A stretch of DNA of 59,099 nucleotides from an uncultured Bacteroidales bacterium (GTDB lineage: Bacteria > Bacteroidota > Bacteroidia > Bacteroidales > P3). The DNA lies in assembly GCA_900318275.1 (NCBI GenBank), contig ONJY01000012.1, positions 1 through 59,099 on the forward strand. The letters are read 5' to 3'. Position 1 is the stretch's first letter; every line of letters begins with the position of its first letter. The notes beneath the pieces were generated by a model. The model saw only the letters and a list, made by a program, of their open reading frames with translations, was not told where the DNA came from and did not search any database. A program made the translations under genes and the position numbers. Of this stretch, positions 581-53,575 are shown one piece after another.

Positions 581-687
581 CTACGGAGCCAGTACGGCAG
601 TTCTTCAGTACTTCAACGATACTTCTTCAGTAGTTCTTCAGTGAAATACTGAAATACTACTGAAGAACTGCTGTACCGGATCCGTAG
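581..687. repeat. Divergent-gap palindrome, copy A
   Basis: The outer arms are CTACGGA (581-587) and TCCGTAG (681-687). The inner arms are 591-610 and 658-677, which pair over 20 bases with one clear mismatch plus the last base, and contain TTCTTCAGTA / TACTGAAGAA. The centre holds further copies of TTCTTCAGT and ACTGAA. Related copies are at about 13955-14074, 26321-26430, 40582-40675 and 53471-53575. Confidence 0.75.
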
Positions 688-691
688 GGGA

Positions 692-732
692 GGAGTTGGA
701 GTTAGGAGTTGGGAGTTTGGAGTTAAGGGTTG
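692..732. repeat. Heptamer tandem repeat, GGAGTTN type
   Basis: About six imperfect 7-base units of the form GGAGTTA, GGAGTTG, GGAGTTT lie next to one another directly after palindrome A and 13 bases before the 11-base array. Confidence 0.8.
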
Positions 733-745
733 TTTTTTTGATAGG

Positions 746-954
746 GTGTTGTAGCCGTTTAGATGGGGTCTTGATGGGGTGTTGTAGCCGTTTAGATGGG
801 GTTTAGATAGGGTGTTGTAGCCGTTTAGATGGGGTTTAGATGGGGTGTTGTAGCCGTTTAGATGGGGTCTTGATGGGGTGTTGGTGGGGTTTAGATGGGG
901 TCTTGATGGGGTTTAGGTGGGGGTTAGGACGGGTTTAGGTGGGGTTCGGGGCGG
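746..954. repeat. Array of nineteen 11-base repeats
   Basis: Nineteen consecutive 11-base units can be laid out without a gap. Typical units are GTGTTGTAGCC, GTTTAGATGGG, GTCTTGATGGG and GTTTAGGTGGG. The unit order GTGTTGTAGCC / GTTTAGATGGG / third unit gives a higher-order 33-base period (GTGTTG at 746, 779, 812, 845, 878). Related 11-mers appear at 28471-28503, 28765-28786, 28901-28941 and 33571-33603. Confidence 0.9.
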
Positions 955-1081
955 CGGAGGGGGCGGGTGGAGGTGTGGGACGAAGGCTTGACGGTGGGGT
1001 GTGGGCGGAAATTTTTTGTCGGGCCAAACGATTGTTAGATAGTGAGTAGGATGGTGCCGACGGAGGACGGCGTCAATATTT

Positions 1082-1114
1082 TTTGTTATACATTAAAAAA
1101 AAGTCGTATTTTTG
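1082..1114 (+). promoter_or_regulatory. guaB promoter
   Basis: TTTG at 1082-1085, then 21 bases, then TATTTTTG at 1107-1114. This matches the Bacteroidota sigma-ABfr consensus TTTG-N19/21-TAnnTTTG. It leaves a leader of about 40 bases before the guaB ATG at 1162. Confidence 0.75.
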
Positions 1115-1161
1115 CAAATTAATTGTCATCGCAAAGTTTGACGAAAATAAAAATATAAACT

Positions 1162-2634
1162 ATGTATACTGACACTTCAAAATTCATCGGTGAAGGACTG
1201 ACTTACGACGACGTCCTTTTGGTCCCTGCCTACTCTGCTGTGCTGCCGCGCGAGGTTAGCGTAGCGTCGCGTTTCTCGAAGCGCATCACGTTGAACACCC
1301 CGTTGGTGAGTGCCGCTATGGACACTGTGACCGAGGCCGCTATGGCCATCGGTATGGCCCAGGAGGGCGGCATCGGCGTTCTGCACAAGAACATGAGCAT
1401 TGAGCGCCAGGCCAACGAGGTGCGCAAGGTGAAGCGTGCCGAGAACGGCATGATAATAGACCCCGTGACGCTGAACAAGGAAGCCAAGGTGAAGGACGCC
1501 CTGCACCTGATGGAGGAGTATGGCATCGGCGGCATCCCCATCGTCGACGAGAACAAGATGCTCATAGGCATGGTGACCAACCGCGACCTGCGCTTCGAGC
1601 GCGACATGGAGCGCCCGCTGAGCGAGATCATGATCACCAAGCTTATCACAACCCATGTGGGCACCACATTCGCCGAAGCTACCGACATACTGCAGCAGCA
1701 CAAGATAGAGAAGCTGCCGGTGGTGAACGAGAAGGGCCAGTTCATGGGGCTGATCACTTACCGCGACATCATGAAGACCAAGGAGCGCCCCAACGCTTGC
1801 AAGGACGCCAACGGCCGCTTGCGTGTGGCTGCCGGCGTGGGCATTACGCCCGACATGATGGACCGTGTCGACGCCCTGGTGAAGGCCGGCGCCGATGCCA
1901 TCGTCATCGATACCGCCCACGGCCACAGCATCCGTGTGGTCGAGGCCCTCAAGAAGGTCAAGGAGACCTACAAGGACATCGACGTCGTGGTTGGCAACAT
2001 AGCCACCGGCGAGGCTGCCCTGATGCTTGCCGAAGCCGGCGCCGACGCCATCAAAGTGGGCATAGGACCGGGCAGCATCTGCTCCACGCGCATAGTGGCC
2101 GGCATCGGTGTGCCGCAGCTGACGGCTGTGTGCGAGGTGTGCGGTGCCCTGAAACAGAAAGGCTACGATGTGCCCGTCATCGCCGACGGCGGCATCCGCT
2201 ACAGCGGCGACATCGTCAAGGCCCTTGCCGCTGGCGCCAGCAGCATCATGGTGGGCAGCCTGGTGGCCGGTGTCGACGAGGCTCCGGGCGAGACCATCAT
2301 CTTCGAGGGCCGCAAGTTCAAGAGCTACCGCGGCATGGGCTCGCTGGAGGCCATGCAGAGCGGCTCCAAGGACCGCTACTTCCAGGACAAGGAGACCGAC
2401 GCCAAGAAGTTGGTGCCGGAGGGCGTCGTGGGCCGCGTGCCCTACAAGGGAACCCTCAGCGAGGTGCTATACCAGATGGTCGGCGGCCTGAAGGCCGGCA
2501 TGGGCTATACGGGCAGCGCCACCATCACCGACCTGCAGAAGGCCAAGTTTATACGCATCACCGCGGCCGGCCGCACCGAGAGCCATCCGCACGACATAGC
2601 CATCACCCGCGAGGCACCCAACTATTCGAGATAA
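1162..2634 (+). CDS. guaB: Inosine-5'-monophosphate dehydrogenase
   Basis: GuaB oxidises IMP to XMP with NAD+, the first committed step of GMP synthesis, in the cytoplasm. The 490-residue product has the usual length and order: the first part of the catalytic TIM barrel ([11 protein letters not shown] near residue 15), a pair of CBS domains at about 95-210, then the rest of the barrel. The catalytic loop GPGSICSTR carries the nucleophile Cys307, and the flap region with RGMGSLEAM follows near residue 395. It has its own consensus promoter. The stop codon TAA is the first three bases of a four-unit heptamer array that fills the space to the next gene, so guaB may be cotranscribed with the prolyl-isomerase cluster. 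Identification is secure. Confidence 0.98.
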
Positions 2635-2659
2635 GAGTTAAGAGTTAAGAATTAAGAGA
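2632..2659. repeat. Heptamer array spanning guaB stop to next start
   Basis: Four units, TAAGAGT, TAAGAGT, TAAGAAT and TAAGAGA, run from the guaB stop codon to the A of the next ATG. Because the period is 7, successive TAA triplets fall in different frames, so the array closes all three forward frames. Confidence 0.85.
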
Positions 2660-4749
2660 TGAAGAAAGTATTGATGACGATAGCCGCCATGCTGCTGCTT
2701 GCCGGTGCCGGCGCGCAGACGTGGCCCCACAACCCTGTTGTGATGGAGGTGGGCGGACAGAAGATTGCCAAGGACGAGTTCATGAAGGACTTTATGAGCA
2801 CCGTCGGCGAGCGTCTTGCCGCCAAGCCCGGTGTCACCGAGGCCGAGAAACGCCAGGCGCTGGACGAATATGTGGACCTGTACGCCACCTTCCGGGCCAA
2901 GCTCAAGGACGCCTACTCGCTGGGATTCGACACTATGCCCAACCTGCTCGAGGAGCTGAAGACCTACCGCGACGAGCTGGCGGCACCTTATCTGATTGAC
3001 AGCGCCACCCTGGAGCGAATACTCCACGAGGCCTACGAGCGCAACCACTACTCGCTGCGCGCCGCCCATATACTCGTCATGCTGTCGCCCGATGCTACGC
3101 CCGAAGACAGCTTGAAAGCCTATAAACACATCATGGGCCTGCGCGACAGGATTATGGCCGGAGAGGACTTCTTTGCCGTGTCGTCGGAGGAGGTGCACCG
3201 CCTGCAGCCCGACGCCCCCCAGCGCCCCAACGAAGGCGACCTTGGCTACTTCACGGCCTTTGACATGGTATATCCCTTCGAGAACGCCGCCTATGCGCTG
3301 AAGGTTGGCGAGGTGAGCATGCCTGTGCGCACCCGCTTCGGATACCACATCATCAAGCTGCTCGACAAGGTGGAGATGTTCGGCAAGTGCGACCTGGCAC
3401 ACATCTGGATGATAAGTCAGGACAGCACGATGCGCAAGTATGAGATTGACGACTGCTACCGCCGCCTGATGGAAGGTCAGGACTTCGCCATCGTGGCCCA
3501 CCAGAGCGACGACCGCACCACCCGCGACAACGGCGGCTTGATGCCCAACGCCACCCTGAGTAACCTCCCCCCGGAGTATGTCGACGTGGCCCAGTACCTG
3601 AAGGACGGTGAAATATCGAAGCCGTTCTTTACCCAGTATGGCTGGCACATCATCAAGATGGTGCGCCGTGACACGTTGCCCCCCTACGAGAGCATGGTGC
3701 CCTACTACAAGCAGAAGATGACCCGCGACCAGCGCGGTGAGGAGAGTCGCAAGGCTTTCACCCGCAGCTGCATGAAGCGCTACGGTATACAGGACCTCAC
3801 CCAGACGCCGGTGCCGCAGCCCAAAGGCAAGAAACGCAAGAAGAAGGAGCCCGTGAAGATGCAGGCATCGCTGCAGCAGCTCTACGACATAGTGCCCGTT
3901 GAGGCCACACGTAACCAGTGGAAGTACAACGACAGCATGGTGACCGACATACACACCATCCTCACCTTGCCCGGAAAGAACTACACGACGCTCGACCTGG
4001 CGCGCTACATCGCCACCCACCAGCGTGGCGGCCGTCCGCTGAAGTCTGAGTATTTCGTCAACATGAAATATAGCGACTTCATCGACAGCGTGGTGATGAT
4101 TTTTGTCGATAGCAGGCTTGAGAAGGACAACCCCGAGCTGGCCGCTGTGGTTGACGAATACCGTCGCGGATTGATGATATTCAACTACAACAACGCCATG
4201 GTGTGGAGCAAAGCTTTGCACGACACCGTGGGGTTCGCCGACTTCTACGCCCGCGAGAGCAGCACCAAGCGCCTGGACAACCCCGAAGACTCCGTATACT
4301 TCTGGAAGACACGCGCCAGAGTGGTGACCGTCAATGTGGTCGACAGCGCCTGTATCGCTCCCGCCAAGGCCGCCAGAATTCTCAAGAAAGCCCTCAAGAA
4401 AAGCAAGGGGAGCCTTGAGATGAAGGACATGCTCACCGATGCCTTGAGCAATAAATGCACAGCCACACGCCCCGTGAGCGTCGCCCCCGACCTTGTGGAG
4501 ATGGGCCGCCAGAATCTGCTCTCGGCCGGCCAGTGGCAGAAAGGCGTCTATATGTCGCCCAAGACCAAAGGCTACAGAGCCGTTGTCGTCGAAGAGGTGC
4601 TGCCGCCGATGCTCAAAGGCCAGATGGAAGCTCGCGGATACTACATGAACGGCTTCCAGAACGAGGTGGAACGTAAGCACAACGACATGCTGCACAAGAA
4701 ATACAACGTGAAGATAAACTACGATGTTGTCAAACAGATCAACTATTAG
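2659..4749 (+). CDS. Periplasmic peptidyl-prolyl isomerase with two parvulin domains
   Basis: This is an exported folding factor of the PpiD/SurA type. Residues 1-19 form a signal peptide (MKKVLMTIAAMLLLAGAGA). Parvulin domain 1 is at about 132-237 (AAHILVM, GDLGYF, FGYHIIKLLD) and domain 2 at about 243-337 (LAHIWMI, GGLMPN, YGWHIIKMVRRD). A lysine-rich stretch (KGKKRKKKEP) is near 390, followed by some 290 residues I cannot assign. The 696-residue length is typical of the long Bacteroidales versions. It is the first of three consecutive isomerase/SurA-type genes, 24 bases after guaB, and its end overlaps the next gene by 26 bases, so cotranscription is likely. It probably assists outer-membrane protein assembly; the client proteins are unknown. 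Confidence 0.92.
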   Translation: MKKVLMTIAAMLLLAGAGAQTWPHNPVVMEVGGQKIAKDEFMKDFMSTVGERLAAKPGVTEAEKRQALDEYVDLYATFRAKLKDAYSLGFDTMPNLLEELKTYRDELAAPYLIDSATLERILHEAYERNHYSLRAAHILVMLSPDATPEDSLKAYKHIMGLRDRIMAGEDFFAVSSEEVHRLQPDAPQRPNEGDLGYFTAFDMVYPFENAAYALKVGEVSMPVRTRFGYHIIKLLDKVEMFGKCDLAHIWMISQDSTMRKYEIDDCYRRLMEGQDFAIVAHQSDDRTTRDNGGLMPNATLSNLPPEYVDVAQYLKDGEISKPFFTQYGWHIIKMVRRDTLPPYESMVPYYKQKMTRDQRGEESRKAFTRSCMKRYGIQDLTQTPVPQPKGKKRKKKEPVKMQASLQQLYDIVPVEATRNQWKYNDSMVTDIHTILTLPGKNYTTLDLARYIATHQRGGRPLKSEYFVNMKYSDFIDSVVMIFVDSRLEKDNPELAAVVDEYRRGLMIFNYNNAMVWSKALHDTVGFADFYARESSTKRLDNPEDSVYFWKTRARVVTVNVVDSACIAPAKAARILKKALKKSKGSLEMKDMLTDALSNKCTATRPVSVAPDLVEMGRQNLLSAGQWQKGVYMSPKTKGYRAVVVEEVLPPMLKGQMEARGYYMNGFQNEVERKHNDMLHKKYNVKINYDVVKQINY

Positions 4750-5581: not shown

Positions 5582-5606
5582 TACCTCATACCGAATAACA
5601 GACATC

Positions 5607-12748: not shown

Positions 12749-13807
12749 TTATGGGAGCAGCTTGGCCAGCATGGCCTCTATTTCGACAAGTCCGTCACGG
12801 ACTATAATCTCCCCGCTTTCACAATCTATCAGGAGCGTCTTCGGGATACCGGAAAGGGCATAGTCATGCCAAGCTTTGCTTTTTTTCCTACCGCCGCTGC
12901 CATCGCACACGTTGACCCAGGTGAGATTGTTTTTCGCAACATAGTCCTTCCATCTATTGAATTGGGCGTCCACGGAGATTCCGTATACTTCCAAGCCCTT
13001 ATCGTGATAGGTGGCGTAAATCTCCTTCAGACGGGGCATGGCCTCCAGGCAGCCCGAGCACCATGTGGCCCAGAAATCGACGATGACATAGCGGTTGGCA
13101 GCATTCTTGACCACAGCCCCCAGACTTATACTGTCGCCGTTCACGTCGGGATAATTCATGTCAATGTACAAGGGGACGATATCGCTGCCTTCCGTCCGAG
13201 GTTCGGTCTTCATGCGCTGCGCCAATTCTGCCCTTAGTCCTGCCACATACTCCAATCCGGCCAGTTCGGGCGAGAGGCGGTCCAGAATATCAAGTGCCTG
13301 AACCGACGACTTGCACCAGGAGTTGATTGTGGCCAATGCCAACGCACCGGTTTGTTCTGCACCCATCACCTCGGCCCTTAGGGCATCGGCCGAATCTTTG
13401 TCGCCCCGCAAATCATATTCCATGACTCTCCGTCTGATATTGTTCGAGACCGTACCCGTCGCCCCCGTCTCCATATCCGCTATGTTGTCGGCATCCACCT
13501 CCACCAAGATTATTCCCGGCTCAAGGATAAAGTCCTTCAGCTGCAGCCAATCTTTTTGGGTATAAAGATACACATGGGTGGGGGCTGACACAGTTGGGTG
13601 AATCTCGAAGGTGCCGTCTTTGACTACGCCTTTGCCGACAACAACAAAATCGTCAAACCCGTCTAGCAATTCGAGTTTTGTACCGTTGGGAAGGCCTTTT
13701 ATAGTCCCCTTTACTGTGCAATAATCCGATTGATTCTGATTTGACTTACATCCGCCGAGACCCAGCATCAGCAGTACCATCATGGAAATTAATGATTTCG
13801 TTTTCAT
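12749..13807 (-). CDS. TlpA-like thiol-disulfide oxidoreductase lipoprotein
   Basis: This is a membrane-anchored periplasmic thioredoxin-fold protein. Its 352 residues comprise a lipobox (LGLGGC, Cys20), an N-terminal DUF4369-like beta domain (about 30-130; VKGTIKGLPNGTKLELL), a helical middle, and a TlpA/AhpC-type thioredoxin domain from about 225 to the end with the active site FWATWCSGCLEAMP (cysteines near 250 and 253). The likely role is disulfide reduction or isomerisation of envelope proteins, or redox sensing. It has its own consensus promoter at 13840-13871, reads toward the ECF sigma gene and ends 55 bases before the possible micro-ORF start. Confidence 0.92.
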   Translation of the reverse strand: MKTKSLISMMVLLMLGLGGCKSNQNQSDYCTVKGTIKGLPNGTKLELLDGFDDFVVVGKGVVKDGTFEIHPTVSAPTHVYLYTQKDWLQLKDFILEPGIILVEVDADNIADMETGATGTVSNNIRRRVMEYDLRGDKDSADALRAEVMGAEQTGALALATINSWCKSSVQALDILDRLSPELAGLEYVAGLRAELAQRMKTEPRTEGSDIVPLYIDMNYPDVNGDSISLGAVVKNAANRYVIVDFWATWCSGCLEAMPRLKEIYATYHDKGLEVYGISVDAQFNRWKDYVAKNNLTWVNVCDGSGGRKKSKAWHDYALSGIPKTLLIDCESGEIIVRDGLVEIEAMLAKLLP

Positions 13808-13839
13808 TTAAACTTTGTCTGTTTGTATTGTTGATTATG

Positions 13840-13871
13840 CAAAAATACACAATGTTTTTAAAGTGACCAAA
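13840..13871 (-). promoter_or_regulatory. Promoter of the TlpA-like lipoprotein gene
   Basis: On the minus strand TTTG (13871-13868), 20 bases, TATTTTTG (13847-13840). This is a good Bacteroidota promoter, 33 bases upstream of the ATG at 13807. Confidence 0.75.
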
Positions 13872-13904
13872 TGGATGAAGGAGATTGTTTTAAAAATGGA
13901 ACTG

Positions 13905-13935
13905 TATACCTGTTGACAGACTGACAACAGGTATA
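13905..13935. promoter_or_regulatory. Operator-like inverted repeat
   Basis: TATACCTGTTG at 13905-13915 and CAACAGGTATA at 13925-13935 form a perfect 11-bp inverted repeat with a 9-base spacer. It lies 34 bases upstream of the -33 element of the tlpA-like promoter. The size suits a dimeric regulator, but no regulator is known. Confidence 0.5.
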
Positions 13936-13954
13936 TGGTTCCCTAAAAAAATGT

Positions 13955-14074
13955 ATGGTCCCGGTATGGAACCGGTACAGACCCGGTACAGCATTTCTTC
14001 AGTAGTTCTTCAGTGATACACTGAAGAACTACTGAAGAAATACTGAAGAACGGCCGAAGGAACTCCGTAGGGGA
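13955..14074. repeat. Divergent-gap palindrome, copy B
   Basis: The best copy: 22-bp arms match perfectly (13994-14015 with 14019-14040, loop ATA), extended to 23 by one more pair. The arms contain TTCTTCAGTAGTTCTTCAGTG. A third ACTGAAGAA follows at 14042, and the right end reads TCCGTAGGGG (14064-14073). The left flank has two CCGGTA-type motifs. Confidence 0.85.
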
Positions 14075-14077
14075 TGC

Positions 14078-14108
14078 ATTGCGGTTTGGATTTTTTTTTG
14101 TATCTTTG
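14078..14108 (+). promoter_or_regulatory. Promoter of the nif3-family gene
   Basis: TATCTTTG at 14101-14108 is a perfect -7 element; a -33-like ATTG lies at 14078-14081 (19-base spacing). The ATG at 14113 is only 4 bases after the element, so transcription should begin at or next to the start codon. Confidence 0.65.
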
Positions 14109-14112
14109 CAGC

Positions 14113-15778: not shown

Positions 15779-15799
15779 ATAACAATTGGAGTGAAAAGA

Positions 15800-15862
15800 A
15801 GTGAAAGGGAGTGAAAGGACAAAGCGTCAGCAGTAACATTTGTCGTCTCACTCCCTTTCACT
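15800..15862. repeat. Long-arm inverted repeat after the zinc-ribbon gene
   Basis: The 15-base arm at 15800-15814 (AGTGAAAGGGAGTGA) is perfectly complementary to 15848-15862 with a 33-base loop. GTGAAA and TCACTCC motifs are repeated around it. It could fold as a hairpin in the mRNA ahead of hutH and act as a weak terminator or stabiliser. Confidence 0.6.
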
Positions 15863-15899
15863 CCCATAGACATCCTCTCACTCCACAAACCATAAAGCA

Positions 15900-17411: not shown

Positions 17412-17453
17412 AAACAGAAAGAGCGTCCTCGGCCGAGGACGCTCTTTCTGTTT
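17412..17453. terminator. Perfect 42-base palindrome, bidirectional terminator
   Basis: Arms 17412-17430 and 17435-17453 match over 19 bp; the 4-base centre GGCC is itself palindromic. It has AAACAGAAAGAG on one side and CTCTTTCTGTTT on the other. It separates convergent hutH and valS and should terminate both. Confidence 0.85.
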
Positions 17454-26247: not shown

Positions 26248-26275
26248 TCTTATTGCCTCGTTCATTTTCGGATTG

Positions 26276-26283
26276 CAAAGATA
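26276..26283 (-). promoter_or_regulatory. -7 element of the outer-membrane barrel gene
   Basis: TATCTTTG on the minus strand followed by CAATCCG. A TTTG lies upstream at a 23-base spacing, longer than the consensus. Transcription would start near 26270, leaving a leader of about 25 bases to ATG 26247. Confidence 0.6.
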
Positions 26284-26320
26284 CACAAAATTTCACAACT
26301 GCGCGACAAAAATCCCACCG

Positions 26321-26430
26321 AGTCCCTTCGGCCCCCTACGGAGTTTCTACGGCCGTTCGACCATCGTTTTTCAGTGTTTTACTGAAGAACTACCGAAGAA
26401 ATGCGGTAAAGGCTCCGTATCGGCTCCCTT
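26321..26430. repeat. Divergent-gap palindrome, copy C
   Basis: Contains CTACGGA (26336-26342), a second CTACGG, TTTTTCAGTG and ACTGAAGAAC(TACC)GAAGAA in the centre, and CTCCGTATCGG at the right. It shares GTTCGACCATCGTT with copy E. Arms are less perfect than in copy B. Confidence 0.7.
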
Positions 26431-26455
26431 GCGGCGGGGTGGCGAAAAAAAATAT

Positions 26456-26486
26456 TTTGCCATGTCGCAGTAGTTTCGTATCTTTG
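26456..26486 (+). promoter_or_regulatory. glyA promoter
   Basis: TTTG at 26456-26459, 19 bases, TATCTTTG at 26479-26486: an exact match to the Bacteroidota consensus. The leader to the ATG at 26527 is about 35 bases. Confidence 0.85.
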
Positions 26487-26526
26487 CAGCAGGAATTTTA
26501 TATTAATTGCAATTTAATAAACAGAT

Positions 26527-27807
26527 ATGCAGAGAGATAACGAAATTTTTGACCTCATCCGCAAAGAGCGTGAGCGTCAGACCAAAGGCATCGAACTGAT
26601 TGCCTCCGAAAACTTCGTCAGCGACCAGGTGATGGAAGCCATGGGCTCCGTCATGACCAACAAGTACGCCGAAGGCTACCCCGGCAAGCGCTACTACGGC
26701 GGCTGCCAGGTGGTGGACCAGAGCGAGACCATCGCCATCGAGCGCGCCAAGAAGCTCTACGGCGCCTGCTGGGCCAATGTGCAGCCCCACAGCGGTGCAC
26801 AGGCCAACATGGCCGTGTTCCTGGCCTGCCTCAACAGCGGCGACACCTTCATGGGCATGGACCTCAACCACGGCGGTCACCTCTCGCACGGCAGCCCCGT
26901 GAACTTCAGCGGTATCAACTACAAGGTTGTTGGCTACCAGGTGAAGGAAGAGACCGGCATGGTCGACTATGAGGACATGGAGAAGAAGGCCCTCGAGCAC
27001 CACCCGAAGCTCATCATCGGCGGTGGCAGCGCCTACAGCCGTGACTGGGATTGGGCCAAGATGCGTGAGATCGCCGACAAGATCGGTGCCATCCTCATGG
27101 GCGACATCAGCCACCCCAGCGGCCTCATCGCCAAGGGCTACCTGAACAATGCCGTCAAGTATTGCCACATCGTCACCACCACCACCCACAAGACCCTGCG
27201 CGGACCTCGCGGCGGTATGATCCTCATGGGTGAGGACTTCGACAATCCTTGGGGCAAGACCACCCCGAAGGGTGAGATCAAGAAGATGAGCGCCCTGCTC
27301 GACAGCGCCGTGTTCCCGGGCACCCAGGGCGGTCCTCTGGAGCACGTCATCGCCGCCAAGGCCGTCGCCTTCGGCGAGGCTCTGACCGACAGCTACGACC
27401 AGTACATCCAGCAGGTGATGAAGAACGCCAAGGTGATGTGCGAAGCCTTCGTCAACAAGGGCTACAAGGTCATCAGCGGCGGTACCGACAACCACCTGAT
27501 GCTCATCGACCTGCGCACCAAGTTCCCCGAGCTCACCGGTAAGGAAGCCGAGAACGCCCTCGTGGCCGCCGACATCACGGTGAACAAGAACATGGTGCCC
27601 TTCGACAGCCGCAGCGCCTTCAAGACCAGCGGTCTGCGCGTCGGAACGCCCGCCATCACCACCCGTGGTCTGAAGGAGGCCGACATGCCCGTCATCGTGG
27701 ACATGATCGACACCGTCCTCTGCAACCCGACCGACGAGGCCGTCCGCGCCAAGATCACCGGCCAGGTCAACGAGATGATGCAGAACCGTCCTCTCTTCGC
27801 CTGGTAA
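26527..27807 (+). CDS. glyA: Serine hydroxymethyltransferase
   Basis: GlyA converts serine and tetrahydrofolate to glycine and 5,10-methylene-tetrahydrofolate, feeding one-carbon metabolism. The 426-residue product shows the family signature throughout: [39 protein letters not shown], and the PLP lysine Lys222 in [14 protein letters not shown]. It is full length and has a consensus promoter. An intrinsic terminator follows directly, between this gene and the gamma-carbonic-anhydrase-like gene, so the latter is probably expressed by readthrough. Confidence 0.98.
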
Positions 27808-28941: not shown

Positions 28942-29023
28942 GGGTGGATGGGAATATGTGGAAGTATGACGGAAGTGAGAGGTCAACGAATAGTTTTGCA
29001 AATGACGAGATTATGTTCACGAG

Positions 29024-29164
29024 AGTGACAGTTGTGACAGTTAAAAATTAGACCATACAAACGGAAAAAAAATTCTATATCTATATATATCTATAGATAT
29101 ATATAGATATAGATGATATTTTTGGTTGTGAAAGCCCCTCAAAACAACTGTCACAACTGTCACT
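29024..29164. repeat. Nested inverted repeat with 40-base AT palindrome
   Basis: Outer arms 29024-29042 and 29146-29164 are perfectly complementary over 19 bases and consist of TGACAGT-type repeats. Between them, 29074-29113 is a perfect 40-base palindrome made only of A, T, C and G in a CTATAT/GATATA pattern. Both structures share nearly the same centre. Confidence 0.85.
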
Positions 29165-29598
29165 GTCACTCTTACCCCGATGTAGGGTGGTGGCGAGAAC
29201 GCTACCGAAGTGTACGGAGTGTTTGGATGTGATAGATATTCAATAACATAAAGCCGACGGGCGAAGTCGGGAGGAAGGGGCGCAACGGTATGGATTCAGG
29301 ATGGGGACACCTTATTTTCGGCGGGGGGGTGGTCGTTTTGTCACAAAAAAGGCTCTGGAATGAGGTATTGATGGCGTGATTCGGGAGCACGAATGTGAGC
29401 GCTGGGGAGGGTGAAGGGTGCTGGACGGAGGGGTGCGGAGGGTGTTTTGGTCGGCAGCGCAATCCACCACGTGCTATCAGTATATACACTATTGTTAGAG
29501 TAGCATTACACTATAGTTACCATAACGTTAGACAAAAGGGGAACGGTAGGTGAGCAAAAGGGGAGCAAAACCAATAGACTTGTTGTTGGTAAAAATCT

Positions 29599-38648: not shown

Positions 38649-40484
38649 TTATTCGTCCTTGTAACCTGCAGCGATGCGGGCACGCTTGCGCTCAATCTCG
38701 TCGAGGATAATCTTGCGGATGCGGAGGTTGCTGGGGGTGATCTCGAGGTATTCGTCCTCGCGGATATACTCCATGGCCTCCTCGAGGCTCATCTTTATTG
38801 CCGGACTGCAGGTCGACTTGTCGTCGGCGCTCTTGGAGCGCATGTTGGTGAGGTTTTTGGCCGTCACCACGTTGATGACTATGTCGTTGCCCGGCCGCAG
38901 GCTCTCGCCGATGACCTCGCCGGCATAGACGTGGTCGCCAGGCTCGATGAAGAAGGGGCCGCGGTCCTGCAGCTTGCTGATGCTGTAGGCCGTTGCCTCG
39001 CCGGTCTCCTTTGCGATGAGGGCGCCGTATTTGTGGTCGTCCATGTCGCCCTTCCACGGCTGGAACTCCAGGAAGCGGTGGGCTATGATGGCCTCGCCGT
39101 TGGTGGCGGTGAGCAGAGTGTTGCGCAGACCTATGATGCCGCGTGAGGGGATGGTGAAGTCGAGCTGCACGCGGTCGCCCTTGGTGTCGATGGTGCCCAC
39201 CTCGCCCTTGCGGCGTGTTACGACGTCGATGACCTTCGACGAGAACTCCTCTGGCACCAGCACGGTGAGCTGCTCGATAGGTTCGCACTTCTGACCATCT
39301 ATCTCCCTGATAATCACCTTGGGCTGGCCGACCTGCAGCTCATAGCCCTCGCGGCGCATGGTCTCGATGAGGACGCTGAGGTGCATGATTCCGCGGCCGT
39401 AGACGAGTAGGGCGTCGGGTGAGCCGGTCTCCTCGATGCGCATGGCCAGGTTCTTCTCCAGCTCGGCGAAGAGGCGGTCGCGCAGATGGCGGCTGGTGAC
39501 ATACTTGCCCTCCTTGCCGAAGAAGGGTGAGTTGTTGATAGTGAAGAGCATAGACATCGTGGGCTCGTCAACCTTGATGGGAGGCAGGGCCTCGGGGTTC
39601 TCGGCGTCGCAGATGGTGTCGCCGATCTCGAAAGCCACGTTCTTGTCGAGGTCCATCAGTACGGCGCAAATCTCGCCGGCTTCGACGGGCGTCTTGATAC
39701 GTTCCTTGCCAAGTCCCTCGAAAACATAGAGTTCCTTGATTTTTGTCTTTATCATCGTGCCGTCGCGTTTGGCGAGGGTGATGCTCTGTCCGGCCTGCAG
39801 GGTGCCTCGGTGCAGACGGCCCACGGCGATACGTCCGAGGTAGGAGCTGTAGTCGAGCGACGAGATCATCATCTGGGTGGTGCCATCGTCGGTCTTCGGA
39901 GCCGGTATATGCTCGATAATCAGGTCCATGAGGTAGCTGATGTCCTCGGTCGGAGTGTTCCAGTCCTCGCCCATCCATCCCTGCTTGGCTGAGCCGTAGG
40001 CTGTGGGGAACTCCAGCTGGTCGTTGTTGGCGCCGAGGTTGAACATCAGGTCGAACACCGCCTCCTGCGTCAGCTCGGGGTCGCAGTTGGGCTTATCTAC
40101 TTTGTTGACCACCACTATAGGCTTGAGGCCCAGCTCGATGGCTTTCTGCAGCACGAAGCGTGTCTGCGGCATGGGACCTTCGAATGCGTCGACCACAAGG
40201 AGGACGCCGTCGGCCATGTTGAGCACGCGCTCCACCTCGCCTCCGAAGTCGCTGTGGCCAGGGGTGTCGATGATGTTGATTTTGTAGCCTTTGTAGCGGA
40301 CGCTGACATTCTTGCTGAGGATGGTGATGCCGCGCTCGCGCTCAAGGTCATTGTTGTCGAGGATGAGTTCGCCAGTCTCCTGGTTGTCGCGGAACAGTTT
40401 GGCCTGATGAAGCATGCGGTCGACCAAGGTGGTCTTGCCATGGTCGACGTGGGCTATAATTGCAATATTACGAACGTTTTGCAT
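38649..40484 (-). CDS. typA: Ribosome-associated GTPase TypA/BipA
   Basis: TypA is a translational GTPase related to EF-G and LepA that helps 50S subunit assembly and growth under stress. The 611-residue product has G1 AHVDHGKTT (11-19), switch [14 protein letters not shown] (about 73), G4 VVNKVDKPN (about 127), domains II, III and V, and the TypA-specific C-terminal domain (about 475-611; [19 protein letters not shown]). It has a TATTTTTG element upstream. It ends one base from the convergent macro-like gene. Confidence 0.98.
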
Positions 40485-40510
40485 AGATGTATGTTGTTAA
40501 ATACAAACTG

Positions 40511-40518
40511 CAAAAATA
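40511..40518 (-). promoter_or_regulatory. -7 element of typA
   Basis: TATTTTTG on the minus strand followed by CAGTTTG, 27 bases upstream of the typA ATG. No TTTG at the -33 spacing. Confidence 0.6.
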
Positions 40519-40581
40519 CGAAAAATATCCGATAGTATTTATATTTTTTATTATTTAGGTGTGTTGACGGCATGTAAGCGG

Positions 40582-40675
40582 CAGGGAGCCCCTATGGAAC
40601 CCCTACGGATCTCCTACGGCCTTCGGACGGCTTCCCACTGAAGAAATGCCGAAGAGGGGCTCCGTATCGGAGTGG
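40582..40675. repeat. Divergent-gap palindrome, copy D
   Basis: Has CTACGGA and CTACGGCC on the left, a single ACTGAAGAA in the centre and GGCTCCGTATCGGAG on the right. It is the most degenerate copy; the left inner arm TTCTTCAGT is not preserved. Confidence 0.55.
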
Positions 40676-41114
40676 CAGGGTGGGGGAGACGAATTTCGCT
40701 CCTAAGCGACTTTCTCGCCAATCTGTGAAGCGGACGTAGTATCGGGGTGAGATAGGCCGTTAGAAGCGATTTTCAGTTGTTGTCATTTGTAAACATTATA
40801 GCACGAAAACCAAGCGTGACAAGTGTAAGTGGAGGTACAAAATCTGCCGTATACAAATGTAATCAAACAACAATTGTATTTTCGGTTAAAAAAAATAACG
40901 GATAGAATATAATATAATATTAAGTAGTTTAAATCAGTATGTTAGATTATGTGTTTTAATGTAGAACTTTTATAATTTAGTCCGAATAAAGTAATTCTTT
41001 ATTAAATGCATGCATGGTTTGGTTAAGTGTTGAAATATTGGTAGTTATGTTTGTTATTTAAAGTGTTTGTTTTATGTTTGTGTTTATGTACAGATGTAAC
41101 GTTGTGAAATTTGT

Positions 41115-41145
41115 TTTGTCATGTCGAAAATAGTGTGTAATTTTG
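41115..41145 (+). promoter_or_regulatory. Promoter of the XRE regulator gene
   Basis: TTTG at 41115-41118, 19 bases, TAATTTTG at 41138-41145. It supports the ATG at 41182 rather than the in-frame ATG at 41149, which would lie at the transcription start. Confidence 0.65.
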
Positions 41146-41181
41146 TAAATGCAATTGTTGTTGAAATACAAATGTAAGATT

Positions 41182-47444: not shown

Positions 47445-47463
47445 CCGTCTGTAGGATGTCGCT

Positions 47464-48045: not shown

Positions 48046-50312
48046 GAAAGAGACTTGCTGCCTTTATGGCTCTGATGCTTTTGGCCGCCGTCGGCGGTCG
48101 GCTCGCGGCCCAGCGTTTCGACGCTCGCGGATTCACCTACCGTGACCCAGAGACCAACTGGGTCGACTCCGTCATGCAGACACTCTCGCTCGACCAGCGC
48201 ATCGCGCAGCTCATGGTCGTGCGTGTGCCCCTCGACATGGACGACAGGCAGGCCAAAGCCTTCTCAGAGGTGATGAACACCTACGGCGTCGGTGGCGTCT
48301 GCTTCTTCGCCGGCACCGCCGAACGCCAAGCCTCAATGACACGCCGTTTTCAGCGCGACGCCCGTGTGCCGCTGATGGTGTGCATCGACGGCGAGTGGGG
48401 GCTCGGCATGCGTCTCAAAGACATGTATTCCTTCCCACGCAACGCACGCTTCGGCGAACTCTCCTCAGATGCCGACAGTATAGTCTACCGTATGGGTGCC
48501 GAGATAGGCCGTCAGTGCCGCGAGATGGGCATCCATGTCAACTTCGCCCCAGTGGCCGACATCAACTCCAACCCCAACAATCCGGTCATCGGCACCCGCT
48601 CCTTCGGCACCGACCCTGAGCGCGTGGCTCAGCTCGCTGTCATGTTCGCCCTCGGTCAGCAAAGCCAAGGGGTGATGGCTGTAGCCAAGCATTTCCCCGG
48701 CCACGGCGACACCGACAAGGACAGTCACCTCGAGCTGCCGGTCATCAAGCACACTCTCGCCTATATCGACACCGTCGACCTGCACCCATTCCGCCGCCTC
48801 TTCGACGCCGGTGTCGGGGGCGTCATGGTGGCCCACCTGCAGGTCAACGCCTACGACAGCCTGCGTCCCTCCACCCTCAGCCCCACCATCGTCGACGGCC
48901 TCCTCAAGGGTACCATGGGCTTCGGCGGCCTCGTCATCACCGACGGCATGGACATGAAGGGCATCACCAACGGCTATGGTGCTGGCCGTGCCGAGCTCAT
49001 GGCCATGCTCGCAGGCAACGACATACTCCTCTTGCCGCCCGACGTCCGTGAGGCCATCGAGACCATCAAAACAGCCGCCGTGCAGAGCGACTCCGTCCGC
49101 CGTCTCGTCGACTACCACTGCCGCCGCGTCCTCAAAGCCAAATACCATTATGTCAGGCCCTATGTCAACGACGCCGTCCGTGTGCCGGACGAGAGTCACA
49201 CGGCCGTCTGCAACGACATCGTCTCCGATCTCAACCTCAATATAGACCGTCGCATCGACAGCATCGTCGACAACGCCATCCGGCAGAACGCTATGCCAGG
49301 CTGCCAGATAGCTGTCATGCACCGTGGACGCCTCGTCGTCAACCGCAGCTATGGCCACCTCACCTACGACAGCACCGCCGCTCCCGTCACCACAGGCACC
49401 ATCTACGACCTCGCCTCCCTCACCAAGGTCTGTGCCACCACCCTGGCCGTCATGCGTCTCATAGACAAGGGGCAGGTCAAGCTCGACGACAAGCTCAGCC
49501 GCCATCTCCCTTACCTCAAAGGTACCGACAAGACCAACATCACCGTCCGTCAGGCGCTCAGCCACTGCGCAGGTCTCAAAGCCTACGACGCCCTCTGGCA
49601 GCTTACCTCCGAGCGCGACAGCATACCGCTCCTCATAGCCGCCTCGCAGCTCAATGCCGACAACAGCTACTGCTACAGCGACTTCGGCTTCATACTCTTG
49701 GCCGACATGGTGGAGCGGGTCACCGGTCAGACCCTTGACGAATATGTGGAAGAGCACTTCTACGACCCCATGGGTCTCAACTCCACATTCTTCACTCCCC
49801 TCGACGAAGGCATCGACACCCTCCGCATAGCACCCACCGAGGTCGACAGCATCCGCGGTCTCATCCGCGGCACAGTACACGACCCCAACGCCTTCGCCAT
49901 GGACGGCGTCGCCGGCCATGCCGGACTCTTCTCCACGGCCGACGAGGTGGCCCTCATCATGCAGATGCTCCTCAACGGCGGCGTGCTCGACGGCCGTCGC
50001 TACCTCAAGCAGAAGACCGTCGAGACCTTTACTCGGCGACACTTCGAGCGGCAGGGCAACCGTCGCGCACTCGGCTTCGACAAGCAGCTCTTCTCCCCCT
50101 CGTCCAACGCACAGGTATGCCCCGAAGCCTCGCAGGCCTCCTACGGCCACACAGGTTTCACCGGCACCATGGTGTGGGTGGACCCCGAATACAACCTCGT
50201 CTACGTCTTCCTCTCCAACCGCGTCCACCCCTCCGCCTCCCCCAACCGTCTCGCACAGCTCAACGTACGCACCGACATACAGTCGCTACTATATAATGAT
50301 ATAAGAAAATAA
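48042..50312 (+). CDS. GH3 glycosidase fused to a serine beta-lactamase-type hydrolase
   Basis: The 756-residue exported product joins two enzymes. After a signal peptide (ending LAAQ), a GH3 beta-N-acetylhexosaminidase-like TIM barrel runs to about 370, with KHFPGHGDTDKDSH and the nucleophile Asp301 in VITDGMDMKGI, as in NagZ. Residues about 400-756 form a class C beta-lactamase/esterase fold with Ser459xxLys462 (ASLTK), Tyr545-Ser-Asp in place of the usual YxN, and GHTGFTGT as the third motif. Bacteroidales homologues of this fusion that I know are often longer (about 1,000 residues) because a GH3 C-terminal domain is between them; here it is missing. The role is probably in peptidoglycan recycling or remodelling. 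Coupled to coaE by ATGA. Confidence 0.93.
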   Translation: MRKRLAAFMALMLLAAVGGRLAAQRFDARGFTYRDPETNWVDSVMQTLSLDQRIAQLMVVRVPLDMDDRQAKAFSEVMNTYGVGGVCFFAGTAERQASMTRRFQRDARVPLMVCIDGEWGLGMRLKDMYSFPRNARFGELSSDADSIVYRMGAEIGRQCREMGIHVNFAPVADINSNPNNPVIGTRSFGTDPERVAQLAVMFALGQQSQGVMAVAKHFPGHGDTDKDSHLELPVIKHTLAYIDTVDLHPFRRLFDAGVGGVMVAHLQVNAYDSLRPSTLSPTIVDGLLKGTMGFGGLVITDGMDMKGITNGYGAGRAELMAMLAGNDILLLPPDVREAIETIKTAAVQSDSVRRLVDYHCRRVLKAKYHYVRPYVNDAVRVPDESHTAVCNDIVSDLNLNIDRRIDSIVDNAIRQNAMPGCQIAVMHRGRLVVNRSYGHLTYDSTAAPVTTGTIYDLASLTKVCATTLAVMRLIDKGQVKLDDKLSRHLPYLKGTDKTNITVRQALSHCAGLKAYDALWQLTSERDSIPLLIAASQLNADNSYCYSDFGFILLADMVERVTGQTLDEYVEEHFYDPMGLNSTFFTPLDEGIDTLRIAPTEVDSIRGLIRGTVHDPNAFAMDGVAGHAGLFSTADEVALIMQMLLNGGVLDGRRYLKQKTVETFTRRHFERQGNRRALGFDKQLFSPSSNAQVCPEASQASYGHTGFTGTMVWVDPEYNLVYVFLSNRVHPSASPNRLAQLNVRTDIQSLLYNDIRK

Positions 50313-50330
50313 CCCTCCACAATCGACAAT

Positions 50331-51146
50331 ATGGCAGGTTTCACAAAATGGATATTCGCAGGCCTCGGCTGGGCCATCGGCGGCCCCATCGGCGCCCTCC
50401 TCGGCTACTTCCTCGGCAAGGCCATTTCGCCCGACAAACAGCTTGGCAGCAGCTCCTTCGGCACTGACGACGCACCCCACCGCGGCCCCTACCGCAACAC
50501 GGGCACGCAGGCCGACATCAACGCCGCCCTCATGGTCCTCATCGCCGCCGTCATGAAGGTCGACGGCGCTGTCAAGCGCAGCGAACTCGACTATGTCAAG
50601 CGCTTCCTCCTCGCCAACTACGGCGAAGAGCGCGGCAAGGAGATGCTCAAGGTGCTGCAGCAGATGGTCGAGCGCGACATCCCCATCGACCAGATTTGCT
50701 TGCAGATCAAGGTCAACACCGACTACAACACGCGCTACCACATGGTCGACTTCCTCTTCGGCATCGGCGGCGCCGACGGCGAGTTCCACCAGAGCGAGCT
50801 CAACATGCTGCGCCTCATTGCCCAGTATCTCGGCATCTCGCAGTCCGACTACACCTCCATCTTCGAGCGTCATGTAGGCTCCTCCTACAGCAGCGGCTAC
50901 GACGGCGGCTCATCTTCGCGCAGCAGCAGGGCCTCCTACGGCAAAGACCCCTACAAGGTGCTCGGCATCGACAGCTCCGCCACCGACGACGAAGTCAAAA
51001 AAGCCTACCGCAAGATGGCCATGAAATACCATCCCGACCGCGTCGCCGGCATGAGCGAAGAGCTCCAGCGCAACGCCGCCGAGCAGATGAAGGAGATCAA
51101 CGAAGCCTACGAAGTCATCAAGCAGCGACGACCCTCCATGAAGTAG
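50331..51146 (+). CDS. DnaJ-domain protein with TerB-like region
   Basis: The 271-residue product has a short hydrophobic, Gly-rich N terminus ([27 protein letters not shown]) that may be membrane-associated, a TerB/DjlA-like helical domain (about 58-185; [27 protein letters not shown]), a Ser-rich linker and a C-terminal J domain (about 207-265) with the HPD motif in [11 protein letters not shown]. This is the layout of DjlA-type co-chaperones that stimulate DnaK at the membrane. It follows the GH3 gene by 18 bases and is the last of the leuS-to-dnaJ run. Confidence 0.93.
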
Positions 51147-51204
51147 GCTGTCCGCAAGAAGAAGAGGTTGGCACCGTCATAGCGCCAGCCTCTACTTCTA
51201 TATT

Positions 51205-51260
51205 CTATAACCTATAACCTATAACCTATAACCTATAACCTATAACCTATAACCTATAAC
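51205..51260. repeat. Eight perfect CTATAAC heptamers
   Basis: The unit is repeated eight times without a mismatch in the space between the DnaJ-like gene and the convergent uridine phosphorylase gene. Confidence 0.95.
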
Positions 51261-51265
51261 CAGTA

Positions 51266-52189
51266 TCACGCCAGCCGTTCCACCACGGTGCCAACCAGCT
51301 GGCGCATCGGCTCGTGGTAGTCGTTGAGGAAGGTCCCTTTGGGGCGGTTGGCAATGATGAGACACACCGTCAGCGCATCGTGGCCCAGCATGTGGCTGAA
51401 GCCGTATATCGCCGAGGTCTCCATCTCAAGGTTCGTCACCCGCAGACTCCTTATCTCTTTGAGGTTGCGTATCTCGCGCTGTTTGCGGCAAGTCCTGAAC
51501 AGACGGTAGTAGTCGCTCCATTCGAATGACGCCAGCTTCTCGTTGAGGTTGTCCATGGCAGGGTGTAGCCTCACGGTGCGGCCCTGCGGACCGTAGAAGC
51601 CCGGCGCAGTTGCCGTGATGCCCTGGTGCATGTCGTAGGCTACGAGCTCCAGCAGCGTGGCGCTGCCCTGCACATAGTAGGGGCGCGCCGTACCGGCCGG
51701 CAGCTCCATATGTTCGGCGAAGGCTCCCTCCATTTCGGGCAGAGGTGAGCGCCACTCCTTGTAGTAGTTCATCAGTCCGTCCAACCCCACGGCGCATACC
51801 GAAGCCACACGACTGCCGCAGTCTATCTCTTCCTGCAACGAGCCGCTGGTGCCAATGCGCACTATGCGCAGGGTTCGGCCGATTTTTGTTTTCCATGCAC
51901 CGTTGTCAAGGTGCAGGGCGGCGTCAAGTTCCGTCATTACAATGTCAATGTTGTCGCAGCCCATACCTGTCGATATGGCTGTGAACCGTGAGCCGTGGTA
52001 GGTGCCGGTAAGGGCGTGGATCTCGCGATTGTGGCTTTCGTGCTCTACATTGTCGAAGATGCTCTTGAACATCTCTACGCGTTCAGGGTCGCCGACGAGC
52101 AGTACATTGTCGGCCAGGGTGTCTGCGGTGAGGTGGATGTGGTAGAGGCTGCCGTCGGCAGCCAATGGTAGTTCGCTTGGTTTCAGCAT
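51266..52189 (-). CDS. Uridine phosphorylase-type nucleoside phosphorylase
   Basis: The 307-residue product cleaves a nucleoside with phosphate to base and ribose-1-phosphate, most likely uridine. Features of the PNP/UDP family are LLVGDPERVEMF (about 30), TYHGSRFTAISTGMGCDNIDIVMTEL (about 62-87), IRIGTSGSLQ (about 111), and LEMETSAIYGFSHMLGH (about 253). The phosphate-binding Gly and Arg and the Met-Glu-Thr-Glu/Ser catalytic patch are present. Uridine specificity is inferred from overall similarity; a related specificity is possible. It follows the PTR-repeat protein gene on the same strand by 26 bases. Cytoplasmic. Confidence 0.9.
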   Translation of the reverse strand: MLKPSELPLAADGSLYHIHLTADTLADNVLLVGDPERVEMFKSIFDNVEHESHNREIHALTGTYHGSRFTAISTGMGCDNIDIVMTELDAALHLDNGAWKTKIGRTLRIVRIGTSGSLQEEIDCGSRVASVCAVGLDGLMNYYKEWRSPLPEMEGAFAEHMELPAGTARPYYVQGSATLLELVAYDMHQGITATAPGFYGPQGRTVRLHPAMDNLNEKLASFEWSDYYRLFRTCRKQREIRNLKEIRSLRVTNLEMETSAIYGFSHMLGHDALTVCLIIANRPKGTFLNDYHEPMRQLVGTVVERLA

Positions 52190-52215
52190 AGGATGTATTG
52201 TTTGTTAGTTGTATG

Positions 52216-53364
52216 TTATCTGCGGATTGGTGCGGCACCACGGGTGGGAGCGGCTTTCTTGTCATCGTTGCCCTGTGTTGAGGTGCTGCGTGTAGGGGCT
52301 GCCGAGTTGCTGTTGCGTGTCGGCGTCGAGGTCTTGCTGTCGTTCTTCTGCGACGAGCTGCTGCGCGTCGGTGCCGGACTTGCTGTTGCGCCGCTGCGTG
52401 TGGGGGCCGCCGAGCTGTTGCTGCTGCGTGTGGGAACAGCGCTCTTGTTCTCGCTCTTCTGTGTCGACGAGCTGCGCGTCGGTGCCGTGCTCGGTGCCGA
52501 GCTGCTGCGTGTGGGTGCCGCCGAGCTGTTGCTGCTGCGTGTCGGAGCTGTGGTCTTGCCGCTGTTGTTGTTTTGCGACGATGTGCTGCGCGTGGGTGCT
52601 GCCGACGTGCCGCTGCCCGAGCGTGTGGGTGCCGACGTGGCTGTGCCGCTCTGCTGTGTGGCAGGGGTTCCCGCCGAGTGGTGCTGGCCGTTGGCGCTGT
52701 TGCTGCCCGTCGGTGTGGGGCGTGCGCCCGACGACGAGCCTGCCGGTACGGGGTGCTCTATCATCGGATGGTCCACTCCGGGCGTCCATGTGCTGGCAGG
52801 CCGCGGTGCGGGAGTGTGCGGGGCACGCAAGTAGTAGGGGTGGTAGGGGTGCGTGGCAGGGCCGTGGTGGCCGTGTGACGGCGGTGCCGGAGGCATCCAG
52901 CCGTAGCGGTGCACCTCATAGTGGTAGGTGCGTGTGTAGCCCGGACGGTGCACTATGCGCGTGTAGTGGTTGTAGGCAGGCACGGTCCATGTAATCGTCG
53001 GCATCCTCAGGCGTCCGTCGGTGCGGAAACGCAGGTATTGTGCCGCGTTGTACATGCGCCCGGCGCTGTAGAGCCAGATGCATTGCAAGTCTATGGGCAT
53101 GTATATCTCCTCGCCCGTGTAGGCGTCGTAGCCGAAGATCCACAGCTCGTAGAATGCCGAGTTGACGCGCTCGGCCCACACCTCATTGAGGAGCACGTAG
53201 GTCTCAATCTCGTAGTCGTAGCCGCAGTATATCATCAATTCGTTCTGGCGATTGAGGTAGCTCACCGCGCGTTCGGCCTGGCTGCGCGTGAAGTAGAGCA
53301 CCGACGTGGCGCTGGCCGTCATCATTGAAGCGAGCATAACTGCTATAATTGCAATGCGTTTCAT
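52216..53364 (-). CDS. Secreted protein with C-terminal PTR-repeat tail
   Basis: I do not recognise the family. The 382-residue product has a signal peptide (ending ASA, about residue 19), a ~150-residue compact part rich in Tyr and Trp (VLYFTRSQAERAVSYL, EIYMPIDLQCIWLYSAGRMYNAAQYLRF), a Pro/His/Tyr-rich section (SHGHHGPATHPYHPYYL), and a tail of about 150 residues in which (A/V/T)PTR(S/N/G) occurs 11 times, separated by Ser, Asn, Gln and Lys. The tail is disordered, basic and low in complexity, as in wall-binding or extracellular matrix-type proteins. Codons for the tail repeat closely, so the tail probably changes length by recombination. It has its own promoter. Confidence 0.75.
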   Translation of the reverse strand: MKRIAIIAVMLASMMTASATSVLYFTRSQAERAVSYLNRQNELMIYCGYDYEIETYVLLNEVWAERVNSAFYELWIFGYDAYTGEEIYMPIDLQCIWLYSAGRMYNAAQYLRFRTDGRLRMPTITWTVPAYNHYTRIVHRPGYTRTYHYEVHRYGWMPPAPPSHGHHGPATHPYHPYYLRAPHTPAPRPASTWTPGVDHPMIEHPVPAGSSSGARPTPTGSNSANGQHHSAGTPATQQSGTATSAPTRSGSGTSAAPTRSTSSQNNNSGKTTAPTRSSNSSAAPTRSSSAPSTAPTRSSSTQKSENKSAVPTRSSNSSAAPTRSGATASPAPTRSSSSQKNDSKTSTPTRNSNSAAPTRSTSTQGNDDKKAAPTRGAAPIRR

Positions 53365-53402
53365 AGGGCGTTGGCTTTTATTTGTTCACTATATTAGTGC
53401 TG

Positions 53403-53433
53403 CAAAGATACAAAAACTTTTTGTTTGCACAAA
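53403..53433 (-). promoter_or_regulatory. Promoter of the PTR-repeat gene
   Basis: On the minus strand TTTG (53433-53430), 19 bases, TATCTTTG (53410-53403): exact consensus. Confidence 0.8.
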
Positions 53434-53470
53434 AAATACTTCTTTTCTGCCGCCTCCCATACCCGCCGAT

Positions 53471-53575
53471 CCTACACCTCCGGTACGGAGTTGTTACGGC
53501 ATTTAGACCGTAGTTCGACCATCGTTCTTCAGTGGAACATAGAAATACTACTGAAGAAATTCCGTAGGGGAGGCG
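53471..53575. repeat. Divergent-gap palindrome, copy E
   Basis: Has GGTACGGA on the left, GTTCGACCATCGTT shared with copy C, GTTCTTCAGTGG and ACTACTGAAGAA in the centre, and TTCCGTAGGGG at the right. Confidence 0.7.

Follow-up and report, generated by a model that had tools for sequence, protein, structure and literature searches.

Why should a short palindromic element stand in the gaps between back-to-back genes? The question is raised by a 59,099-base stretch of an uncultured Bacteroidales bacterium (contig ONJY01000012.1; the whole stretch is hereafter called the window), in which the original prediction had placed five copies (A–E) of an imperfect palindrome, one in every gap between divergently transcribed genes and none in any other gap. 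Reading of the sequence found the five copies where they had been placed, and a profile search of all 59,099 bases (E limit 10) gave five merged matches, one per divergent gap, and no sixth. Matches in the window were expected, as the profile had been seeded with copies from the window's own genome (G000), the five included, and from a relative, G022. The window copies are inverted arrays of 11-bp units. Arrays with this period were found in most of the large divergent gaps sampled in G000, and their cores are copied among the sites of each genome. From this placement and copying we infer a function, and the data hint that an undescribed element may keep back-to-back promoters apart.

The 11-bp period, which the original prediction did not name, is a more constant feature than the palindrome. 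In all five window copies, 11 was the best of the lags 7–16, with matches at 26–31 of 44 positions, and lag 8 was close behind in copy A (24). A typical arm runs from the centre outward through ACTGAAGAAC and 11-bp units like TACTGAAGAAC to outer units such as TCCGTAGGGGC, with the variant units GATGGTCGAAC and TATCGTTGAAA interspersed, and the element measures about 110–150 bp by reading. The arms are most alike at the centre and drift outward. Counting only arms that start with ACTG, of which G022 yielded too few, the likeness per successive 11-bp block was 0.98, 1.0, 0.91, 0.79, 0.72, and 0.60 in the related genome RGIG6226 (66 arms), and 0.94, 0.80, 0.61, 0.57, 0.58, and 0.48 in G000 (36 arms). 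Conserved pairing of the mirrored units was considered and rejected, as mirror identity in G000 equalled that of random arm pairs (18 pairs); in RGIG6226 it exceeded random arm pairs only at positions 22–33 (31 pairs; 9 of 500 shuffles reach it), and G022 left only 2 pairs owing to arms that start one base further inward. A hypervariable loop was also rejected, since a few subfamilies in two orientations account for the loops of RGIG6226 and G022. Purine-rich outer flanks are shared by tandem and divergent copies and are thus uninformative about divergent gaps in particular. An extra asymmetric insert, about 44 bp or four 11-bp steps by reading, was seen in two RGIG6226 copies (L132 and L156) and in L070 (3007–3197); it contains a GGCGACGGAACTACGCCCC-like stretch, which is doubled in L156.

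When the window copies were folded as single-stranded DNA, the z values were −9.0 for A, −9.75 for B (−34.9 kcal/mol), and −3.9 for E, whereas C (−1.9) and D (−1.3) are weak as hairpins. In addition, 13 of the 23 arrays in other members of the genus were direct-only in our own test, that is, they had the period without mirror symmetry. The palindrome is thus not supported as the essential feature for which it had been taken, and a hairpin is not the whole story. This bears on two explanations based on folding. In one of them, a cruciform would soak up the negative supercoils of two diverging polymerases, so that the shape of the DNA rather than a protein insulates. Divergent placement, the strong hairpins of copies A and B and of one copy each in G044 and G011, and the stem with a short loop, frequently of 3–5 bases, at the end of several letter families speak for a cruciform, but it accounts neither for the direct-only arrays nor for copies C and D, which hardly fold better than shuffles, and it has no need of an 11-bp beat; we regard it as improbable. 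In the other, the hairpin potential of some copies would serve a two-way RNA terminator or an RNase III site for stray antisense transcripts. This is very unlikely: by reading, the stems are not followed by a T-tract, the hairpin is impossible in direct-only arrays, the two promoter motifs are both downstream of the element, and no Rfam match was obtained in the window at gathering scores.

Placement was examined across G000 (2.28 Mb, 56 contigs, 88.6% complete), which is a draft like the other genomes used. BLAST located at least 40 places, including four window copies (84 rows merged by hand; 40 of 66 candidates scored), while copy D was missed by BLAST and recovered by the profile alone. 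The places typed with the profile (matches to 1e-6) comprised 38 divergent, 7 tandem, and 1 convergent, besides 4 at contig edges, which were kept untyped here and in the other genomes. Gaps were then surveyed over about 42% of the genome, namely in copy-centred stretches, the window, and 26 off-copy stretches from the same contigs, the last lacking strong copies by design because they were chosen without a BLAST place. Genes were called by our own caller, for which hexamers from long open frames served as training data. A gap was counted as having an array of any kind if it gave a profile match below 1e-3 or if lag 11 gave 30 or more matches in 44 positions, a level that none of 980 letter-shuffled gaps attained. 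The main count was made on gaps of 250–1300 bp whose two genes each scored 60 or more, so that gaps below 250 or above 1300 bp, gaps beside genes scoring below 60, and contig-edge gaps were dropped. An 11-bp array beside a weak gene (L245) and a convergent copy in a 125-bp gap (L060) fell outside it for these reasons. Counts of palindrome centres per gap were discarded as too strict.

By this count, 42 of 45 divergent gaps had an array, compared with 9 of 33 tandem and none of 3 convergent gaps. The copy-centred stretches contributed 29/29 divergent and 3/11 tandem gaps, the window 4/4 and 0/1, and the off-copy stretches 9/12 divergent, 6/21 tandem, and 0/3 convergent. When only the off-copy stretches and the window were considered, the difference was retained (13/16 divergent versus 6/22 tandem; Fisher p 0.003). 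Five of the off-copy divergent gaps contained arrays without the window's letters, which were of GATGGTCGAAC type in L090, L233, L236, and L250 and of TATCGTTGAAA type in L232; L242, L244, and L249 had no array as defined above. For the window's own letter family, the unfiltered rates in off-copy and window gaps of at least 150 bp were 8/28 divergent, 3/75 tandem, and 0/13 convergent. Lag 11 was detected in 24 of the 47 divergent gaps of 200–1300 bp in this genome, and each of the other lags from 7 to 16 in at most one. For 11-bp arrays in large gaps, the expectation of an element in every divergent gap thus comes close to the truth, and for the window's letters it is only partly right, while its absence from all other gaps does not hold genome-wide, as tandem copies exist and one copy lies within a gene. 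Two outcomes had been named in advance as grounds for abandoning the claim, namely copies just as frequent in tandem or convergent gaps and a lack of further copies; neither was seen in the 42% of the genome covered, and in this sense it survived.

The 38 divergent gaps with any window-family array each contained a single cluster (38/38), and the centre of the element lay at a median of 0.52 of the gap. Outward-facing TAnnTTTG, which we take to be the Bacteroidetes −7 motif, was found by pattern matching on either side of the element in all five window gaps. In the wider set, where some places enter twice, 58 of 115 rows had it on both sides, with a median distance of 64–71 bp to the element edge. 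This position, upstream of both promoters at a similar distance, would suit a shared operator, in which the array is the binding site of a global activator or repressor that acts on the two promoters jointly; operators of the CarH type consist of 11-bp repeats according to PMC9304148, and the array stood upstream of a promoter-like motif in four of six tandem gaps read by eye (L053 had none, and L074 was unsettled). Such an operator should, however, be equally frequent upstream of single promoters in tandem gaps, which was not seen, and the gaps with arrays include those of the housekeeping genes guaB, glyA, and typA. A shared operator is accordingly quite improbable.

We then compared the relatives. 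At E 1e-5, a search across 41 genomes gave matches in G000, G022, and G015, and the other 38 were without. Among the matches listed from named genomes, the core was mostly in Bacteroidales metagenome-assembled genomes (MAGs) such as RUG061 (the same as G022), RGIG6226 (sheep rectum), and RGIG5009 (roe deer rumen). The exceptions among them were two other MAGs: in one of Burkholderiales the contig opens within directly repeated window units (L146), and in one of Flavobacteriaceae the match stands alone and belongs to no array (L157). The RUG names presumably denote rumen genomes. With the profile (to 1e-6), the places in G022 were 33 divergent, 12 tandem, 1 convergent, and 2 at contig edges, and those in RGIG6226 were 26, 6, 0, and 8, respectively; the family peculiar to G011 occupied 12 divergent, 6 tandem, 1 convergent, and 2 contig-edge places. 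In other members of the genus, lag 11 was detected in 9/32 divergent, 6/48 tandem, and 0/8 convergent gaps. A wider set, which adds hand-picked typA and glyA loci and uses a looser gene score, gave 15/53, 7/73, and 1/13 (Fisher p 0.009, divergent versus tandem). Under thin sampling, 12 of 27 further members of the genus had an 11-bp array, and 15 showed none in the few gaps sampled. In other families of the order, lag 11 was found in none of 23 gaps, of which just 6 were divergent, so that restriction to the genus is not established.

Several relatives have array families of their own. The search with the G011 array found at least 22 places with 93–100% identity and one weak match each in G018 and G022, the G041 array had at least 28 scored places, in G041 alone among 31 genomes, and the G044 array had at least 28 scored places, weaker kin in G018 (70–76%), and a few weak matches in G001, G004, and G011. 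In one G011 stretch (L354 5127–5736), a GTTCTTCGGTT array passes into a TAGTATTACG unit, as if arrays of two kinds had been joined there. The sites, as opposed to the letters, are often common. Where both flanks of a G022 copy were adjacent in the fetched G000 DNA, the G000 gap had an array in 19 of 20 cases (16 of the same family and 3 with GATGGTCGAAC letters). The corresponding figures were 7 of 8 for RGIG6226 copies (5 of the same family, 2 with other letters) and 3 of 3 for G011 copies, the G011 letters being its own. Since occupancy is high anyway, these figures demonstrate shared sites and leave descent at each site unproven. Some aligned pairs had a changed core within conserved promoters and flanks. 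By eye, the typA gap contained arrays of similar letters in G000, G022, and G015, arrays with other letters in G003, G004, G009, G011, G019, and G041, and none in others, for example G013, G024, and G044. The notion that the letters are unrelated between species was softened, as five hand-picked loop-anchored units share on average 6.8 of 11 letters versus 3.0 after shuffling. Within one genome, many loci have a similar core; from species to species the core varies, although the gap that it occupies is often the same, which indicates that cores were copied among sites. Because the letters vary between species and the beat is constant, any recognition must change too or be based on shape.

Copying among sites would also be explained by a selfish element, in this case a palindromic minisatellite resembling a miniature inverted-repeat transposable element (MITE), which would prefer, or mostly survive in, the promoter-upstream DNA of divergent gaps. 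We consider such an element nearly as likely as a promoter-separating array. Similar copies are dispersed within single genomes (G011, G041, and G044), both orientations are about equally common (loops CAAAC in 18 and GTTTG in 14 of 37 RGIG6226 copies), and two orthologous gaps without the element in G000 are filled in a relative. It explains the copying, and the in-gene copy of G000 described below, at least as well as a promoter-separating array does, whereas single occupancy and the lower tandem rate are explained less well: large tandem gaps are filled under a third as often as divergent ones (9/33 versus 42/45), and where 38 of 38 gaps had a single cluster, a Poisson process at 42/45 occupancy (all array kinds) expects two or more in about 34. 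The two filled and empty pairs, when aligned, had no clean insertion edge or target duplication. Copy B had no match in plasmids or phages, and viral contigs had no exact pattern match, so that a mobile carrier was rejected.

Repetitive extragenic palindromic (REP) elements are usually found at gene 3′ ends, with a GTAG or CGTC tag at the 5′ foot. The present arrays resemble them and bacterial interspersed mosaic elements in being many dispersed intergenic palindromes per genome with species-specific letters. According to PMC3733652, REPs are 20–40 bp long and tagged GTAG or CGTC; the present element is about 110–150 bp, has an 11-bp unit, and lies in divergent gaps. By reading, GTAG closes the outer units of the window family at their 3′ side, an ending that G011 copies lack. 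A link to a REP-associated tyrosine transposase had also been suggested, and no Y1 transposase (PF01797) match was found in G000, at its 88.6% completeness; PF01797 is present in 22 of the 31 genus genomes searched. A REP origin through such a transposase was therefore rejected. BrickBuilt of Porphyromonas gingivalis, an intergenic MITE with a 23-nt tandem unit, a leader and a tail, 19 copies, and reported bidirectional promoter activity (passages of PMC4596501), supports the selfish alternative. Its likeness lies in a Bacteroidales host, dispersed and always intergenic copies, tandem short units, a limited host range, and several sites common to strains; it differs from the present arrays, which have an 11-bp unit and arms that are often mirrored arrays, and those passages give no divergent-gap rule. 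As for the terminal inverted repeats of a MITE, the arms are mirrored in the window family, G011, G041, and G044, the ends decay gradually, and the direct-only arrays mentioned above have no mirrored arms. Finally, passages of PMC9304148 describe how a CarH/CarA oligomer binds one face of tandem 11-bp direct repeats at the carotenoid and carH promoters, in operators that overlap the −35 element and contain the motif TnnACA. Tandem 11-bp repeats are common to both systems, as judged here by the lag-11 tests, but the present ones occupy dozens of sites upstream of promoters and are often mirrored, and the window-family unit has no ACA on either strand and hence no nnnnTnnACAn (by reading); the G016 unit TTGTTTTACAC happens to contain TnnACA. 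By analogy, CarH is a precedent for the recognition of tandem 11-bp repeats by a protein from a single face of the DNA.

The direct-only arrays, the changing letters, and the single cluster per gap (38/38) together favour, tentatively, a promoter-separating array that is probably bound by a protein on one face of the DNA and whose core is recopied around each genome. Units of 11 bp, often mirrored about a short loop, lie roughly midway in large divergent gaps, flanked by promoter-like motifs that face outward; a protein would bind them cooperatively along one helix face, as 11 bp is about one turn. The array may then insulate the two promoters by halting stray transcripts or by keeping negative supercoils from spreading, and the specificity of the protein and the letters of the array would change together over evolution. 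The readings offered originally were two-way promoter control, an insulator or terminator for back-to-back transcripts, a nucleoid-protein site, and a surviving REP-like element; of these, an insulator or a nucleoid-protein site fits as a candidate. Several observations weigh against a promoter-separating array. The binding protein is postulated without a dedicated search. Short divergent gaps (80–250 bp) are mostly free of arrays, with 1 of 12 occupied (0/10 in off-copy stretches and the window, 1/2 in copy-centred ones), large tandem gaps are occupied in 9 of 33 cases, and tandem places make up 7/50 in G000, 12/48 in G022, 6/40 in RGIG6226, and 6/21 in G011. A G022 copy lies in a 295-bp convergent gap (L095), and the divergent excess in other members of the genus is smaller than in G000, where 29 of the 45 divergent gaps in the main count were copy-centred, 4 were in the window, and 12 elsewhere. 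A called gene of G000:C50 contains a degenerate array of the window family (L248 1256–1392), which keeps the frame open with no stop and adjoins stretches that resemble transporter membrane segments; copies can thus land elsewhere. The alike copies within G011, G041, and G044 indicate a copying that a selfish element explains without any function. A bolder version of the promoter-separating array is rather doubtful: throughout the genus, nearly all large divergent gaps would each have a single insulator, an 11-bp array in phase with the helix and bound by a fast-evolving reader protein, and its letters would be rewritten genome-wide, site by site, while position and beat stay fixed.

Positions in the window of the five copies and of the promoter-like motifs that flank them
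Feature	Position	Strand	Description	Basis
Copy A	561..711		inverted array of 11-bp units, upstream of guaB (IMP dehydrogenase, 1162-2634)	nhmmer E 2e-34, best lag 11
Copy B	13951..14091		inverted array between thioredoxin-like gene (-) and NIF3-like gene (+)	nhmmer E 1e-36
Copy C	26301..26450		inverted array upstream of glyA (26527-27807), variant GTTCGACCATC unit inside	nhmmer E 5e-32
Copy D	40571..40680		degenerate array upstream of typA/bipA (38649-40484, -)	nhmmer E 8e-12, weakest of five
Copy E	53460..53578		inverted array between 52216-53364 (-) and 53700-55136 (+)	nhmmer E 1e-25
-7-like motif, left of copy A	420..427	-	outward TAnnTTTG	pattern match
-7-like motif, right of copy A	1107..1114	+	outward, guaB side	pattern match
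-7-like motif, left of copy B	13840..13847	-	outward	pattern match
-7-like motif, right of copy B	14101..14108	+	outward	pattern match
-7-like motif, left of copy C	26276..26283	-	outward	pattern match
-7-like motif, right of copy C	26479..26486	+	outward, glyA side	pattern match; conserved in G022
-7-like motif, left of copy D	40511..40518	-	outward, typA side	pattern match
-7-like motif, right of copy D	41138..41145	+	right-facing, one of three (others 41046, 41073)	pattern match
-7-like motif, left of copy E	53403..53410	-	outward	pattern match
-7-like motif, right of copy E	53670..53677	+	outward	pattern match

Our gene calls place the divergent gaps of the window at 13784–14112, 26266–26526, 40485–41160, and 53365–53699, which are the gaps described originally, except for that left of guaB. 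There, the gene left of copy A extends beyond the contig end and is missing from our calls; in G022, the orthologous gap before guaB is divergent and has the element. The G022 gap orthologous to that of copy C has a longer version, with conserved flanks. The neighbouring genes are ordinary (guaB, thioredoxin-like, NIF3-like, glyA, and typA). Other repeats were observed in the window. A 1.45-kb tandem gap has a nested palindrome at 29021–29167, with GTGACAGTT direct repeats outside and a TATA-rich inner palindrome, and a like design with GCGTAACA repeats occurs in two G000 divergent gaps (L244 and L245). Mirrored AGTGAAAGG-type repeats in a tandem gap (15785–15885) form a second kind of short inverted array. 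A perfect 42-bp palindrome in a convergent gap (17412–17453) is probably a two-way terminator.

We found no description of such arrays in the open-licence literature, and, to our knowledge, the need for physical insulators between back-to-back bacterial promoters is largely untested. G000 itself marks candidate insulator sites, in that its large divergent gaps mostly have one array. Direct tests thereby become possible of promoter coupling, of how dispersed DNA changes in concert, and of a binding protein that may co-evolve with it. Even if the element is merely selfish, a genome-wide spread with mostly one copy per divergent gap would amount to an unusual rule of targeting or tolerance.

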